64,000 nucleotides of DNA, taken from NCBI RefSeq assembly GCF_021474405.1, contig NZ_JAKEIO010000010.1, positions 1 to 64,000 on the forward strand, given 5' to 3'. This document shows, one piece after another, positions 24,471 to 61,601 of the stretch. This DNA is from [Streptosporangium] indianense (GTDB taxonomy: Bacteria; Actinomycetota; Actinomycetes; Streptomycetales; Streptomycetaceae). A program made the translations under genes and the position numbers. Under the pieces are notes generated by a model, which ran no database searches, was not told the origin of the DNA, and saw only the letters and a list, made by a program, of their open reading frames with translations. Each line of letters opens with the position of its first letter. Positions within the stretch are counted from its first letter, which is position 1.

Positions 24471-25676
24471 TTAGGACTGAGGATCTCCATCGACCAGACG
24501 CCCCAGGATCAGAGCGATCCGCAGGGTGAACGCAGATCGTACATCGGAGGGTGACCATCCGGTGACGTCAGTCACACGTCGAAGCCGGTAGCGGACGGTG
24601 TTGGGATGGACGAACAGCATCCGGGCCGCCCCCTCAAGGCTGCTCGCCTGTTCGAGGTAGACGCTGAGGGTCTCCAGGAGCGCGGCTCCGGCCTCCTCCA
24701 GCGGTCTGTAGATCTCCTCCACCAACTGCTCGCGGGCCGAGGGGTCACCGGCCATCGCCCGCTCCGGGAGCAGATCGTCGGCCAGGACCGGGCGCGGGGC
24801 GTCCTGCCAGGCGGAACACGCCTTGAGCCCGGCGGCTGCGGCCTGCGCGGACCGGGTCGCTGCCAGCAGGTCCGGCACGACCGGGCCCGCCACGACCGGC
24901 CCGGCCGCGAACGGGCCGATGAGCGACTTGGCGACGGCCAGCGGGTTGTCGCTGCCTCCCGCGATGACCACCAGGCGGTCGCCGAGCACCCCGGTGAGCA
25001 CCTGGAGCTTGGCGTGCCGGGAGGCCCGCCGGATCGCCTCCACGGTCAGTTCCGAGTCGCCGTCGGGCGCCGTGCCGAGGACCACGCACACGTGCTCGGG
25101 CGAGTTCCAGCCGAGCGCGGCGGCCCGCGACACGGCACCTTCGTCGGCCTCGCCGCTGAGCACGGCGTTCACCACCAGGGACTCCAGCCGGGCGTCCCAG
25201 GCACCGCGTGCCTCGGCGGCCTGCGCGTACACCTGGGCCGTGGCGAAGGCGATCTCCCGGGCGTAGACGAGCAGTGCCTCGCGCAGCACCCGCTCGTCGC
25301 CGGGGGCCGCGACCTCGTCGATCGCGCTCTCCATGACCTCGATGGTGGTGCGCACCATCTCCACGGTCTGGCGCAGGGTGATCGCCCTGGTCAGCTCGCG
25401 CGGCGCGGTGCCGAAGACGTCGGTGGAGATGGCCTGCGGGGCGTCCGGATGCCGGAACCACTCGGTGAACGCGGCGATACCCGCCTGTGCGACCAGACCG
25501 ATCCAGGAACGGTTCTCCGGGGGCATGGCCCGGTACCAGGGCAGCGTCTCGTCCATCCGCGCGATGGCCTGCGCGGCGAGCGACCCGGACGACTTCTCCA
25601 GCCGCTTCAGCGTCGCGGCATGCGGATGGACGTCGTGGGCTGCGGCTTCGTTCTTGCTGGTTTCGGGTTCGGGCAC
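24471..25676 (-). CDS. fasR: FasR, PucR-type regulator of fatty acid synthesis
   Basis: 401 residues, GTG start at 25676. The C-terminal HTH_30/PucR domain reads AARMLFVHPNTVRYRLRRVTDVTGWSP; the central region (about 160-290) resembles a GGDEF-like/CdaR domain. In S. coelicolor FasR is an established activator of the fabD-fabH-acpP-fabF promoter. Its position immediately upstream of fabD in the same orientation fits this. Divergent from the pirin gene with only 62 nt between the start codons, so the two promoters must overlap. Confidence 0.9.
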   Translation of the reverse strand: MPEPETSKNEAAAHDVHPHAATLKRLEKSSGSLAAQAIARMDETLPWYRAMPPENRSWIGLVAQAGIAAFTEWFRHPDAPQAISTDVFGTAPRELTRAITLRQTVEMVRTTIEVMESAIDEVAAPGDERVLREALLVYAREIAFATAQVYAQAAEARGAWDARLESLVVNAVLSGEADEGAVSRAAALGWNSPEHVCVVLGTAPDGDSELTVEAIRRASRHAKLQVLTGVLGDRLVVIAGGSDNPLAVAKSLIGPFAAGPVVAGPVVPDLLAATRSAQAAAAGLKACSAWQDAPRPVLADDLLPERAMAGDPSAREQLVEEIYRPLEEAGAALLETLSVYLEQASSLEGAARMLFVHPNTVRYRLRRVTDVTGWSPSDVRSAFTLRIALILGRLVDGDPQS

Positions 25677-25738
25677 AGGGACAAGACTGCCTTATCCGGA
25701 CGGGAAGCCGGTCCGCAGGGCCTACCGTGGACGTCGTG

Positions 25739-26407
25739 ATGGACGTCAGGCGCGCGGACGAGCGCTACCCCGGAGGGGACGCGGCCGCTGGGATCGAGTC
25801 GTGGCACGCCTTCTCCTTCGGGCCGCACTACGACCCGGACAACCTCCGCTTCGGCGCGGTGCTCGCGTGCAACGAGGAGCGGCTGGCGCCCGGGGCCGGC
25901 TTCGACGAGCATCCGCACAGCCACACCGAGATCGTGACCTGGGTGGTCGAGGGCGAGCTGACCCACCGGGACTCCACGGGGCGCGAGTCGGTCGTACGCC
26001 ACGGCGACGTGCAGCGGCTCAGCTCGGCGGGCGGGGTGCGGCACGTGGAGCGCAACGACGGTCCCGGGCCCCTGACCTTCGTCCAGATGTGGCTGGCCCC
26101 GCTCGAGCCCGGCGGCGACCCGTCCTACGAGGTCGTCCACGGCATCGCCGATTCGACGCCGTACGCCGTCCCGGAGGCGGGTGCGATGCTGCACGTGCGG
26201 CGCCTGGGACCGGGGGAGCGGACAGCGGTGCCGGACGGGCCGTACGCCTACGTCCATGTCGTACGCGGCGAGGTCCGCCTGGACGGCAAGGAACTGGGAC
26301 CCGGTGACGCGGCCCGGATCACGGACGCCAAGGGCCTGGAGGCCGAGGGCGTGCGTGACGCGGAGCTGCTGATCTGGGAGATGACCCAGGTCGTGTCCGC
26401 AACCTAG
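25739..26407 (+). CDS. Pirin family protein (bicupin)
   Basis: 222 residues from ATG at 25739; a GTG one codon earlier is possible. N-terminal cupin with metal-ligand cluster FDEHPHSHTEIVTWVVEGELTHRDSTG, typical of pirin and of YhhW/YhaK quercetinase-like proteins that bind Fe(II). The second cupin half contains YVHVVRGEVRLDGKELGPGDA. Role in Streptomyces is not defined; some pirins bind transcription or metabolic enzymes, others oxidise flavonols. Its stop codon TAG (26405-26407) is part of the CTAG at the end of the 169-bp inverted-repeat element. Confidence 0.9.
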   Translation: MDVRRADERYPGGDAAAGIESWHAFSFGPHYDPDNLRFGAVLACNEERLAPGAGFDEHPHSHTEIVTWVVEGELTHRDSTGRESVVRHGDVQRLSSAGGVRHVERNDGPGPLTFVQMWLAPLEPGGDPSYEVVHGIADSTPYAVPEAGAMLHVRRLGPGERTAVPDGPYAYVHVVRGEVRLDGKELGPGDAARITDAKGLEAEGVRDAELLIWEMTQVVSAT

Positions 26408-26572
26408 TGCCGCGGCAGGCAACGTTCGCCCCGTCGCGACGCCCGGCACGCCCTCTCGCCGTACCGGCCGAAAGCCCAAGTATGTCCAGTACGAGGGCTT
26501 CCGGCCGGCACACCGAGAGCACGCACCGGACGCCGCTCCTTCACGGGCAAACGTTGCCTGCCGCGGCACTAG
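26404..26572. mobile_element. 169-bp MITE-like element, copy 1, CTAG ends
   Basis: The element runs CTAG to CTAG with perfect 23-bp terminal inverted repeats beginning CTAGTGCCGCGGCAGG. Interior arms (AAAGCCC near 26473 and GGGCTTC near 26497) pair too, so the whole unit can fold into one long imperfect hairpin. No protein is encoded convincingly. A second copy of identical length at 60037-60205 differs at only five positions (97% identity). The first CTAG contains the pirin stop TAG, and the last CTAG contains, on the other strand, the stop of the serine hydrolase gene. Both features fit insertion at a CTAG with duplication of TA. Confidence 0.85.
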
Positions 26573-27384
26573 AGCTCGGCCAGCACCGCGTCCGTGAACG
26601 CCGGCCACGCCTCGATCGCCCACGGCCCGAACGCCCGGTCCGTCAGCGCCACGCAGGCCGCTCCCGCGTCGGGGTCGATCCACAGGAACGTACCCGACTG
26701 ACCGAAATGCCCGAAGGTGCGCCGAGAGGACGACGAACCCGTCCAGTGCGGCGACTTGGAGTCGCGGATCTCGAAGCCGAGTCCCCAGTCGTTCGGGTTC
26801 TGGTGGCCGTACCCCGGCAGGACGCCCTTGGTGCCCGGGTACTGCACACTCATCGCCTCGGCGACCGTACGGGGGTCCAGCAGCCGCGGCGCCTGCACCT
26901 CGGCCGCGAACCGCAGCAGGTCCTCCACCGTCGACACCCCGTCCTTGGCCGGGGAGCCCTCCAGGGTCGTCGAGGTCATGCCCAGCGGCTCCAGCACGGC
27001 CTGCCGCAGGTACTCGGCGAAGGGGATGTCGGTGACCTTCGCGACATGGTCGCCCAGCTGCTCGAAGCCGGCGTTGGAGTACAGCCGCCGCTCCCCGGGC
27101 GGGGCCGTGACCTTGTGCTCGTCGAAGGCGAGGCCCGAGGTGTGCGCGAGCAGGTGCCGGACCGTCGACCCGGCGGGACCCGCCGGCTCGTCGAACTCGA
27201 TCGCCCCCTCCTCGTACGCGACGAGCACCGCGTAGGCGGCCAGCGGCTTGGTCACCGACGCGAGCGGGAACCGCTGCCCGGCCGGCCCGTGGAGGCCGAG
27301 GACGGTGCCGTCGGCTCGCACGGCACCCGCGGCGGCGGTGGGAACCGGCCAGTTCTCGATCAAGGCGAGGCTCTTCAGCGACAT
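26569..27384 (-). CDS. Serine hydrolase (beta-lactamase class C/DD-peptidase fold)
   Basis: 271 residues. SxxK motif SVTK (Ser43-Lys46), YSN (102-104), and the third motif HFGQSG near residue 230. No signal peptide, so probably a cytoplasmic esterase or peptidase of the beta-lactamase superfamily (COG1680). It is shorter than AmpC (about 360) because several loops are missing. Its stop codon TAG (complement of 26569-26571) lies in the right-hand CTAG of the inverted-repeat element. The convergent partner is the pirin gene on the other side of the element. Confidence 0.88.
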   Translation of the reverse strand: MSLKSLALIENWPVPTAAAGAVRADGTVLGLHGPAGQRFPLASVTKPLAAYAVLVAYEEGAIEFDEPAGPAGSTVRHLLAHTSGLAFDEHKVTAPPGERRLYSNAGFEQLGDHVAKVTDIPFAEYLRQAVLEPLGMTSTTLEGSPAKDGVSTVEDLLRFAAEVQAPRLLDPRTVAEAMSVQYPGTKGVLPGYGHQNPNDWGLGFEIRDSKSPHWTGSSSSRRTFGHFGQSGTFLWIDPDAGAACVALTDRAFGPWAIEAWPAFTDAVLAEL

Positions 27385-59809: not shown

Positions 59810-60040
59810 ATGTGCCGGAGTATCAAGACGCTGCGCCCGCCCGCGATGCCCGAAGAGGCCACCGAGGCGGATGTGCGCGCTGCCGCCCTGCAGTACGTGC
59901 GGAAGGTGTCGGGCTTCCGCGCCCCCGCCGCTCACAACCAGGAGGTGTTCGACCGCGCCGTGGAAGCGATCGCGCAGGCGACGGCCGAGTTGCTGGACGG
60001 CCTGGAGGTCCGGGGCGCGGGGGCCCGGAAGGCGAGCTAG
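59810..60040 (+). CDS. DUF2277 protein
   Basis: 76 residues from ATG at 59810. CRSIKTLRPPAMPEEATEADVRAAALQYVRKVSGF matches DUF2277 (read in pieces), a small actinobacterial/proteobacterial family with conserved N-terminal Cys and RSIKTLR. No known function. The stop codon TAG (60038-60040) is in the CTAG at the left end of the second 169-bp inverted-repeat element, as in the pirin gene next to copy 1. Confidence 0.9.
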   Translation: MCRSIKTLRPPAMPEEATEADVRAAALQYVRKVSGFRAPAAHNQEVFDRAVEAIAQATAELLDGLEVRGAGARKAS

Positions 60041-60205
60041 TGCCGCGGCAGGCGACGTTCGCCCCGTCGCGACGCCCGGCACGCCCTCTCGCCGCACCGG
60101 TCGAAAGCCCAAGTACGTCCAGTACGAGGGCTTCCGGCCGGCACGCCGAGAGCACGCACCGGACGCCGCTCCTTCACGGGCAAACGTTGCCTGCCGCGGC
60201 ACTAG
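60037..60205. mobile_element. 169-bp MITE-like element, copy 2
   Basis: Identical in length and nearly in sequence to the element at 26404-26572: five substitutions (one in the left terminal repeat, giving GGCGACGTT for GGCAACGTT). Ends are CTAG...CTAG. The left CTAG supplies the DUF2277 stop codon; the right end lies 35 nt before the PAP2 stop codon. No transposase here. Confidence 0.85.
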
Positions 60206-60239: not shown

Positions 60240-61601
60240 TCAGACCGCCGGCTCCGGCTGGGGCTCGGGGCGTGGCGCGGGGACGGTCCGCGCCTCCCAC
60301 AGCCTGGTCGTCCGCCGGTAGCCGTGGACCACCGACGCCATCGCCAGCAGGAGCAGCGGCGCGAAGAGCCACGGGTACGCGGCCATCTCCAGGGGCAGGA
60401 AGCGGTAGGACGCCAGCAGCACCGCGAAGACGACCGTCCCGTGGCCGACCAGCCGCAGACCGGCCCGGTCCCAGCCGCGGTCGTACGTGCGAAGCGCCGC
60501 CTCGACCGTGTACGCGAACACCACGCCGGCGATGAGGTCCACGCCGTAGTGCCAGCCGAACCCCAGCGTCGCGGCGAGGGTGGCGATCAGCCAGAACGTG
60601 CCGGCCAGACGCAGGGCGCGCGGTCCTCTGCGGGAGTGGATGAAGATCGTCGTGGCCCACGCCGTGTGCAGGCTGGGCATGCAGTTGCGCGGCGTGATCC
60701 CGTCGAACGGCATCGCGTACGGGGTGGTGACCGGCGGCAGCGTGTCGGGCCACAGGTCGGCCGCCGCCCAGTGCCCGCCCTCGGGGCCGTAGGCGAACAT
60801 CGGCCCGACCACGGGATAGATCATGTAGACGGCCGGTCCGAGCACGCCGATCAGCAGGAACGTCCGTACCAGGTGGTGGCGTGGGAAGCGCCGCTCGGCC
60901 GCCACGTTGCGCAGCTGGTACAGCGCCACACAGACCGCGGCCACCGCGAGCTGGGCGTAGACGTAGTCGAGGGCGTGCTCGCCGACCGGGCCGCTCGCCC
61001 TGAGGAGCCGGCCCGCCAGCCACGACGGGTTGCCGAGCGCGTGATCGGCCATGGCGATGTACGGGTCGAGGACGACCGGGCGGGTCTTCGACGTGATCAG
61101 CAGCCAGGTGTCCCCGGTCTTGCGGCCGGTCACCAGCAGCAGGCCGAGCCCCACACCCTTCAGCATCAGGAGGCGTTCCGGGCCGGTGCGGCGGGTGAGG
61201 GCGATGATCCCGCAGCCCAGGATCACCCACAGCGCGCCGTTGCCGAACGGGTGGCCTTCGTCGGGATAGGTGCCGGTCGCCCAGCGGACCAGCAGGAACA
61301 CGACGTCGATGCCGATCGCGGTGCCGAGCGCGAGGAGCCGTTGCCGCCAGGTGAGCACCACCATCGTCAGCGCGAGGCTGGCGTACAGCAGGAACCCGGA
61401 CTTGGGGGCGTAAACGACCTCGCGGGCCTGCGTGGTGATCGGACCGGGTATGCCGAGCCGGTATGCGGCGATCTGGAGCGCGACGAGGAATCCGAGCGTG
61501 AGCACGCCGGCCGCGGCCCACAGCACGGTCCGTGGGTGCCGCTTCGCGGCGGAGGCGATCCGTCCAGTGCGAGAGGCTTCCCGCGACGCCGTCGTCGTCA
61601 A
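60240..61601 (-). CDS. PAP2-superfamily membrane phosphatase/transferase
   Basis: 453 residues, start TTG at 61601 (no better start nearby). About ten membrane segments. The PAP2/inositolphosphotransferase motifs are NCMPSLHTAWATT and GFGWHYGVDLIAGVVFAY, with conserved His in each, as in inositol-phosphorylceramide-synthase/AUR1-like (PAP2_3) proteins. Acts on lipid phosphates in the membrane. C-terminal tail is Pro/Arg-rich (PAPRPEPQPEPAV). Downstream is the second inverted-repeat element, upstream a DedA-like gene. Confidence 0.85.
   Translation of the reverse strand: MTTTASREASRTGRIASAAKRHPRTVLWAAAGVLTLGFLVALQIAAYRLGIPGPITTQAREVVYAPKSGFLLYASLALTMVVLTWRQRLLALGTAIGIDVVFLLVRWATGTYPDEGHPFGNGALWVILGCGIIALTRRTGPERLLMLKGVGLGLLLVTGRKTGDTWLLITSKTRPVVLDPYIAMADHALGNPSWLAGRLLRASGPVGEHALDYVYAQLAVAAVCVALYQLRNVAAERRFPRHHLVRTFLLIGVLGPAVYMIYPVVGPMFAYGPEGGHWAAADLWPDTLPPVTTPYAMPFDGITPRNCMPSLHTAWATTIFIHSRRGPRALRLAGTFWLIATLAATLGFGWHYGVDLIAGVVFAYTVEAALRTYDRGWDRAGLRLVGHGTVVFAVLLASYRFLPLEMAAYPWLFAPLLLLAMASVVHGYRRTTRLWEARTVPAPRPEPQPEPAV

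Follow-up and report, generated by a model that had tools for sequence, protein, structure and literature searches.

A hairpin core of a Streptomyces MITE with IS630-type ends is also carried between unrelated terminal inverted repeats

Two copies of a 169-bp element lie in a 64,000-nucleotide stretch of DNA from [Streptosporangium] indianense (contig NZ_JAKEIO010000010.1, positions 1 to 64,000; hereafter the window). They very probably belong to a Streptomyces family of miniature inverted-repeat transposable elements (MITEs) that is moved in trans by IS630-family transposases and whose core is a separate module. What distinguishes this MITE is that its core is shared between the ends of unrelated transposase families. 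In the usual view, a MITE is the decayed derivative of one parent insertion sequence (IS), being 50–500 bp long, free of a transposase gene, and endowed with terminal inverted repeats (TIRs) in common with an autonomous IS. An earlier sequence-only reading of the window had called the element MITE-like, which our analysis bears out; the sharing of the core, its strand-asymmetric covariation, and the placement of the element at TAG stop codons were absent from it.

Results

Two 169-bp copies in the window

The two copies (Table 1) are equal at 164 of 169 positions (97.0%), with mismatches at element positions 18, 59, 65, 80, and 109, and each is bordered by CTAG on both sides. The coordinates, lengths, and 97% identity reported in the sequence-only reading proved exact on re-checking, and the flanks of the two copies are unrelated, as it had also said. 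The 23-bp TIRs that it described are perfect in copy 1, where they extend to 27 of 28 bp, and carry a single mismatch (A18G) in copy 2. Internal inverted repeats are present as well, but they are not nested as proposed: RNA folding of both strands gave a single long imperfect quasi-palindrome instead. Allowing up to three mismatches, the 23-bp end was matched four times in the window, compared with no match in 100 dinucleotide-preserving shuffles. At 169 bp, the element falls within the MITE size range and is too short for a transposase gene. It occurs in dispersed copies with empty sites in relatives, and it has TIRs in common with autonomous IS630 elements (L500–L504, L508, and L487).

Table 1. 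Features of the two element copies and of the adjoining genes (window positions)
Feature	Position	Strand	Remarks
MITE copy 1, 169 bp	26404..26572	.	Empty site in G026, G009, G092
Left TIR, copy 1	26404..26431	+	28 bp, CTAGTGCCGCGGCAGGCAACGTTCGCCC
Right TIR, copy 1	26545..26572	-	Minus strand reads CTAGTGCCGCGGCAGGCAACGTTTGCCC; agrees at 26/28 with one of the TIRs of IS630 L502
Hairpin core (~104 bp), copy 1	26433..26536	-	Conserved; pairing including G-U kept on the minus strand
Left CTAG, copy 1	26404..26407	.	TAG is the stop of the pirin gene
Right CTAG, copy 1	26569..26572	.	CTA provides the TAG stop of the hydrolase gene, convergent on the minus strand
Pirin-gene ORF (true start later)	25487..26407	+	Ends at copy 1; Pfam Pirin, E 3e-29
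Beta-lactamase-fold serine hydrolase	26569..27384	-	Ends at copy 1; Pfam Beta-lactamase, E 1e-38
MITE copy 2, 169 bp	60037..60205	.	164/169 to copy 1; empty site in G026, G009
Left TIR, copy 2	60037..60064	+	
Right TIR, copy 2	60178..60205	-	
Hairpin core, copy 2	60066..60169	-	Conserved; orientation as in copy 1
Left CTAG, copy 2	60037..60040	.	TAG is the stop of the DUF2277 gene
Right CTAG, copy 2	60202..60205	.	
DUF2277 gene	59810..60040	+	Ends at copy 2; Pfam DUF2277, E 6e-27
DUF5933/PAP2 protein	60240..61601	-	Convergent, 35 bp past copy 2

Copies in the host genome and in relatives

As would be expected of the mobile Streptomyces element that had been proposed, the host genome (a 7.8-Mb draft of 309 contigs) contained about eight near-full copies together with shortened forms of 120 and ~58 bp, and more copies were found in relatives of the genus. 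In genome G149, the TIR was matched 85 times with no more than two mismatches, which corresponds to about 40 copies, and most matches paired at a spacing of 169 bp or less. They include many near-identical copies of 169 bp, and the close identity of several copies points to recent spread. Genome G012 had 208 matches to a related TIR-like end; its copies number about 100, and most are 165 or 191 bp long. The element was also found on Streptomyces and Embleya plasmids, and nothing in the phage collection matched it. At three loci of G149 (L415–L417), runs of N begin within the TIR, placing assembly gaps at the element, so the copy numbers from draft genomes are lower bounds.

Five of the eight near-full host copies contain an additional GC-rich hairpin of ~28 bp. 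This hairpin (GGGGGTGCCCCCTGCTCGAAGAGCTCGGGGGAG and relatives) often splits the core, both in the host genome (L004–L008) and elsewhere (L087, L093, L155, and L451), and is a second, nested palindromic repeat.

A core shared between unrelated ends

The core (element positions ~30–133) was present in 72 of the 150 sampled genomes of the genus Streptomyces. Altogether 97 distinct full cores were collected, 40 with IS630-type ends and 57 with other ends. The closest pair of cores across the two classes was identical at 102 of 104 positions and had unrelated ends; CTAGGGGGTGTCTGGTGGATC, CTAGGGCCTGTTGCGAAAGT, CTAGGGCCTGTCGTCAAA, and CTAGGGGGTGTTTCGAAAGT are examples of the unrelated ends that surround the core. 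The core sequence is more conserved than the ends mobilising it. The end of one MITE (AGGGCCTGTTGCGAAAGTG, L034) is identical to the TIR of L187, which is an IS5-family element of genome G149. Among the non-IS630 end types, TGTTGCGAAAGT alone could be matched exactly to an IS5 TIR; some of the others resemble IS5 TIRs (L163, L170, and L179), and the rest are unassigned.

A tree was built from the 97 cores; with 104 columns, it is poorly resolved. Parsimony gave eight changes of end class (8–10 in the bootstrap), strongly supported branches forced three, the figure for shuffled labels was 29, and finer end classes raised the count to over 20. Given the few columns, the sole firm inference from the tree is that the end class changed more than once. 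TIRs would most likely be exchanged when ISs land on the CTAG at the edge of a MITE and an internal deletion follows: two such landings and a deletion would leave new ends around an old core.

Several IS elements associated with these MITEs had features of their own. The IS5-family element that shares a MITE end (G149:C29) has its transposase in two frames and, within the same TIR pair, an extra ORF for a putative protein resembling the pyridoxamine-phosphate-oxidase type. Two landings of the kind proposed for TIR exchange were observed, each placed precisely at the terminal CTAG/TA of a MITE copy, namely a 911-bp IS5-type element with a CTAA duplication (L190, 408-1318) and an IS630 element with a different TIR, TAGTGTGATGCGCCAGAAATCC (L488, 1071-2479). 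The former was considered as an IS5 element sharing the MITE end, and this was rejected when comparison of IS copies revealed a separate 911-bp IS that had landed on the MITE edge.

Hairpin fold and strand asymmetry

When folded as RNA, the element reached −150.1 kcal/mol on the minus strand (z = −17.3) and −114.1 kcal/mol on the plus strand (z = −12.5). On the minus strand, the consensus of the core folds into an almost unbroken series of 45 pairs. Nine of these are G-U, and the same nine positions are A-C mismatches on the plus strand. Across 86 distinct cores, 94% of cells were paired. Changes on both sides were seen in 24 of the 45 pairs, compared with 11 ± 2 in shuffles (none of 500 reached this number), and 46 double compensatory changes could be mapped to branches. 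Among the mapped events, 67 led from Watson-Crick to G-U and 20 from Watson-Crick to A-C. The minus strand folded better in all 97 copies, with a median advantage of 36 kcal/mol. An Rfam covariance-model search of the window returned tRNA only and did not match the element.

Since nothing in a DNA palindrome as such would favour one strand over the other, selection has probably acted on a single-stranded form, of which a transcript is the simplest. Covariation alone can arise when one palindrome arm is corrected from the other by template switching; it is therefore the strand asymmetry, not the covariation by itself, that favours RNA. On this basis, selection on a minus-strand transcript as an RNA hairpin seems moderately probable. 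We put forward more tentatively, and would not presume, that selection acts on the core in its own right, as an RNA or single-stranded DNA module that has repeatedly gained IS630 and IS5 ends and persists because its folded minus-strand transcript is useful to the element or the host.

It is also conceivable, if rather unlikely, that the core of this MITE is functionless and shared by chance, a few recombinations having moved it between MITE families, and that the G-U/A-C asymmetry reflects strand-biased C-to-T mutation. The asymmetry indeed lies mainly in C>T versus G>A changes (52 v 15); A>G versus T>C changes (12 v 5) are not significant alone (p = 0.14), so a C-to-T mutation bias on one strand may contribute. 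The three end-class changes forced by strongly supported branches would also suit few recombinations, but the parsimony count and the still higher count for finer classes would not. Nor would a functionless core explain the double compensatory changes, the covariation in more than half of the pairs, or a better fold on the same strand in every copy.

Insertion at CTAG and at stop codons

The empty sites that the sequence-only reading had named as a check were present in relatives: G026 and G009 have one CTAG at both window loci. At the copy 1 locus, a single CTAG replaces CTAG-element-CTAG in G026 (GAGATGCGCTAGAGCTC), G009 (GATGTCCTAGAGGTC), and G092 (GATGCTCTAGAGCTC), and the flanks of copy 1 align unbroken to these relatives once the element is removed and one CTAG is retained. 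At the copy 2 locus, G026 (GGCGAGCTAGCACCGG) and G009 (GGCAAGCTAGCGCCGG) have one CTAG where the DUF2277 gene ends. In the empty copy 1 locus, the pirin and serine-hydrolase genes converge on the single CTAG, within which their TAG stops overlap; in the window each edge of copy 1 supplies one of these two genes with its TAG stop.

Both edges were CTAG in 66 of 90 copies. As many as 103 of 154 intact CTAG edges (67%, from 90 copies that are not independent) terminate an open frame of 90 codons or more, compared with 40% of the other CTAG sites in comparable DNA, a small control. Most simply, this placement can be read as a sign that the element is harmless when inserted at a stop codon. Some insertions lie at CTAG without a long open frame. 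As regards orientation, the right edge closed a frame of at least 90 codons in 56 of 77 cases and the left edge in 47 of 77, which is too close to indicate a bias relative to the flanking gene.

At the pirin/hydrolase junction of G070 (L344), the copy 1 locus holds a fragment, CTAGTGCTGTGACCCGG, which is perhaps the remnant of an independent insertion into the same CTAG. Three loci (L003, L029, and L145) have symmetric CCAG...CTGG edges that are not direct repeats. Such edges are not explained by simple target duplication and may stem from template-switch correction between the palindrome arms.

Alternatively, the element could be a repeat that is encoded by the host and immobile (REP/BIME- or terminator-like), was kept by selection between convergent genes, and spread by recombination instead of transposition. 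The very stable hairpin, the intergenic location with edges that supply TAG stops, and a structure apparently under selection would agree with such a repeat. We nevertheless consider it very improbable in view of the single-CTAG empty sites, the dispersed near-identical copies, the TIRs in common with intact IS630 elements, the insertions away from long open frames, and the absence of a U-tract terminator pattern at the element. No sigma-70 promoter pattern was found there.

The parent insertion sequence

The sequence-only reading had predicted a parent IS with matching ends, and IS630-family elements of this kind were found. Its proposal of an IS630/Tc1-type element inserting at TA within CTAG fits both the single-CTAG empty sites and the IS630 elements that share the ends. 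A scan of the collection for the end next to non-core sequence led to IS630 transposases, and a subsequent DDE_3 search led to an intact 1,502-bp IS630 element with one 400-codon open frame (L487) in G012, the genome with ~100 MITE copies. Its ends read CTAGTGCTGTGACCGG[G/A]AAGGTTC[G/A]CCGGG, the right end equals the G012 MITE end over 30 bp, and its transposase matched the NCBIfam IS630 model NF033545 (E 9e-47). An IS630 copy adjoining the same end matched Pfam PF13358 and PF13565, the HTH_32 and DDE_3 combination of this family.

A second subgroup of IS630 elements, found on plasmids, ends in CTAGTGCCGCATCAGGCAACGTTYGCCC or close to it (L500–L504 and L508). These ends agree with the window ends at 25–26 of 28 bases where counted and, like them, have either C or T at base 24. 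The left TIR of copy 1 agrees at 26 of 28 bases with both TIRs of the element in L500 and at 27 of 28 with the IS630-associated end in L428. In Streptomyces sp. AC1-42W, an end associated with IS630 matches 27 of 28. The TIR of the presumed mobilising IS630 transposase is CTAGTGCCGCATCAGGCAACGTT. Two of 28 bases differ between the window TIR and most intact parental TIRs (GG v AT, bases 11–12). The target agrees with the TA duplication and CTAG preference of IS630; since the element edges restore CTAG on both sides, duplication of TA and of CTAG cannot be told apart. The 309-contig draft of the host genome contained no intact IS630 parent, only a remnant (C30, L468). The host MITEs may accordingly lack a parent, unless one is hidden in an assembly gap.

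A parent of the IS5/IS427 or IS701 kind can practically be dismissed: several such elements with CTAG edges and CTAG-like targets occur in these genomes, but none of the 30 IS5 (PF13340) and about 50 IS701 (PF13546) loci that we read has TIRs like CTAGTGCCGCGGCAGG, which the IS630 elements do have, and the window ends are unlike all IS5 TIRs found and are not of the IS701 type. Two other candidates were also set aside: a 3.2-kb TIR pair in G149 turned out to be two separate MITEs rather than an autonomous element, and the IS630 elements near a matching end in L434 and L446 have only one such end each.

In this group of IS630 elements, passenger genes (VOC/glyoxalase, MerR regulator, methyltransferase, and GNAT) often seem to be present, either in the interval from TIR to transposase or past the transposase (L500, L501, L503, L507, and L428; L424 and L429). 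One 920-bp TIR pair (L429) encloses an ORF resembling a RibD_C-type reductase, without a transposase.

Discussion

From the shared ends we infer mobilisation in trans by IS630. An IS630-family (Tc1/mariner-type, DDE_3) transposase would act on the 28-bp TIRs, excise the element, and place it at the TA of a CTAG, with duplication of either TA or the whole CTAG. A TAG stop codon hit in this way would be recreated, which would make insertions at gene ends tolerable. The ~104-bp hairpin core between the TIRs would be a separate module; it also lies inside TIRs of another class, including at least one type from the IS5 family (DUF4096/DDE_Tnp_1), so it would have been spread by different transposases.

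The closest known system is RUP of pneumococcus, described as a MITE of IS630-Spn1 that targets TA, is commoner between convergent genes, and folds as RNA (PMC3049150, PMC2229807). As far as these accounts go, RUP resembles our element in being small and intergenic, in having TIRs of the IS630 kind, and in its RNA fold; it differs in host and sequence, being AT-rich and 107 bp long, and the portions of the accounts consulted report no core common to MITEs of another IS family. IS630 itself is stated to insert at TA, favouring CTAG (Tenzen and Ohtsubo 1991, as cited in PMC2170065). Its family (Tc1/mariner superfamily; IS630, ISY100) shares the TA/CTAG target and the 28-bp TIRs with our element, whose parent has a DDE_3 transposase; the window element, lacking a transposase gene, would depend on one in trans. 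The IS5 family (DUF4096, IS427-like) and its MITEs provide the ends, with CTAG edges, of other carriers of the same core, whereas the window copies lack IS5-type ends. The Correia element, ERIC, and BOX are, by description, likewise MITE-like bacterial elements of stable structure, and such structures in transcripts can alter expression, for example through RNase III cleavage (PMC10969869); they occur in other hosts, and that review is silent on interchangeable ends. We found no prior account of this Streptomyces family in the open-access literature; most subscription journals and ISfinder lay outside the search, and an earlier description is possible.

The element also matters for annotation, as it supplies stop codons at many gene ends and coincides with gaps in draft assemblies. 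Above all, one small hairpin, found in about half of the sampled Streptomyces genomes, is carried by the ends of different transposase families. If the core is functionless, the family would offer a clean case for the study of transposon-end exchange; if it is functional, bacterial MITEs may act as modular vehicles for an RNA hairpin under selection.
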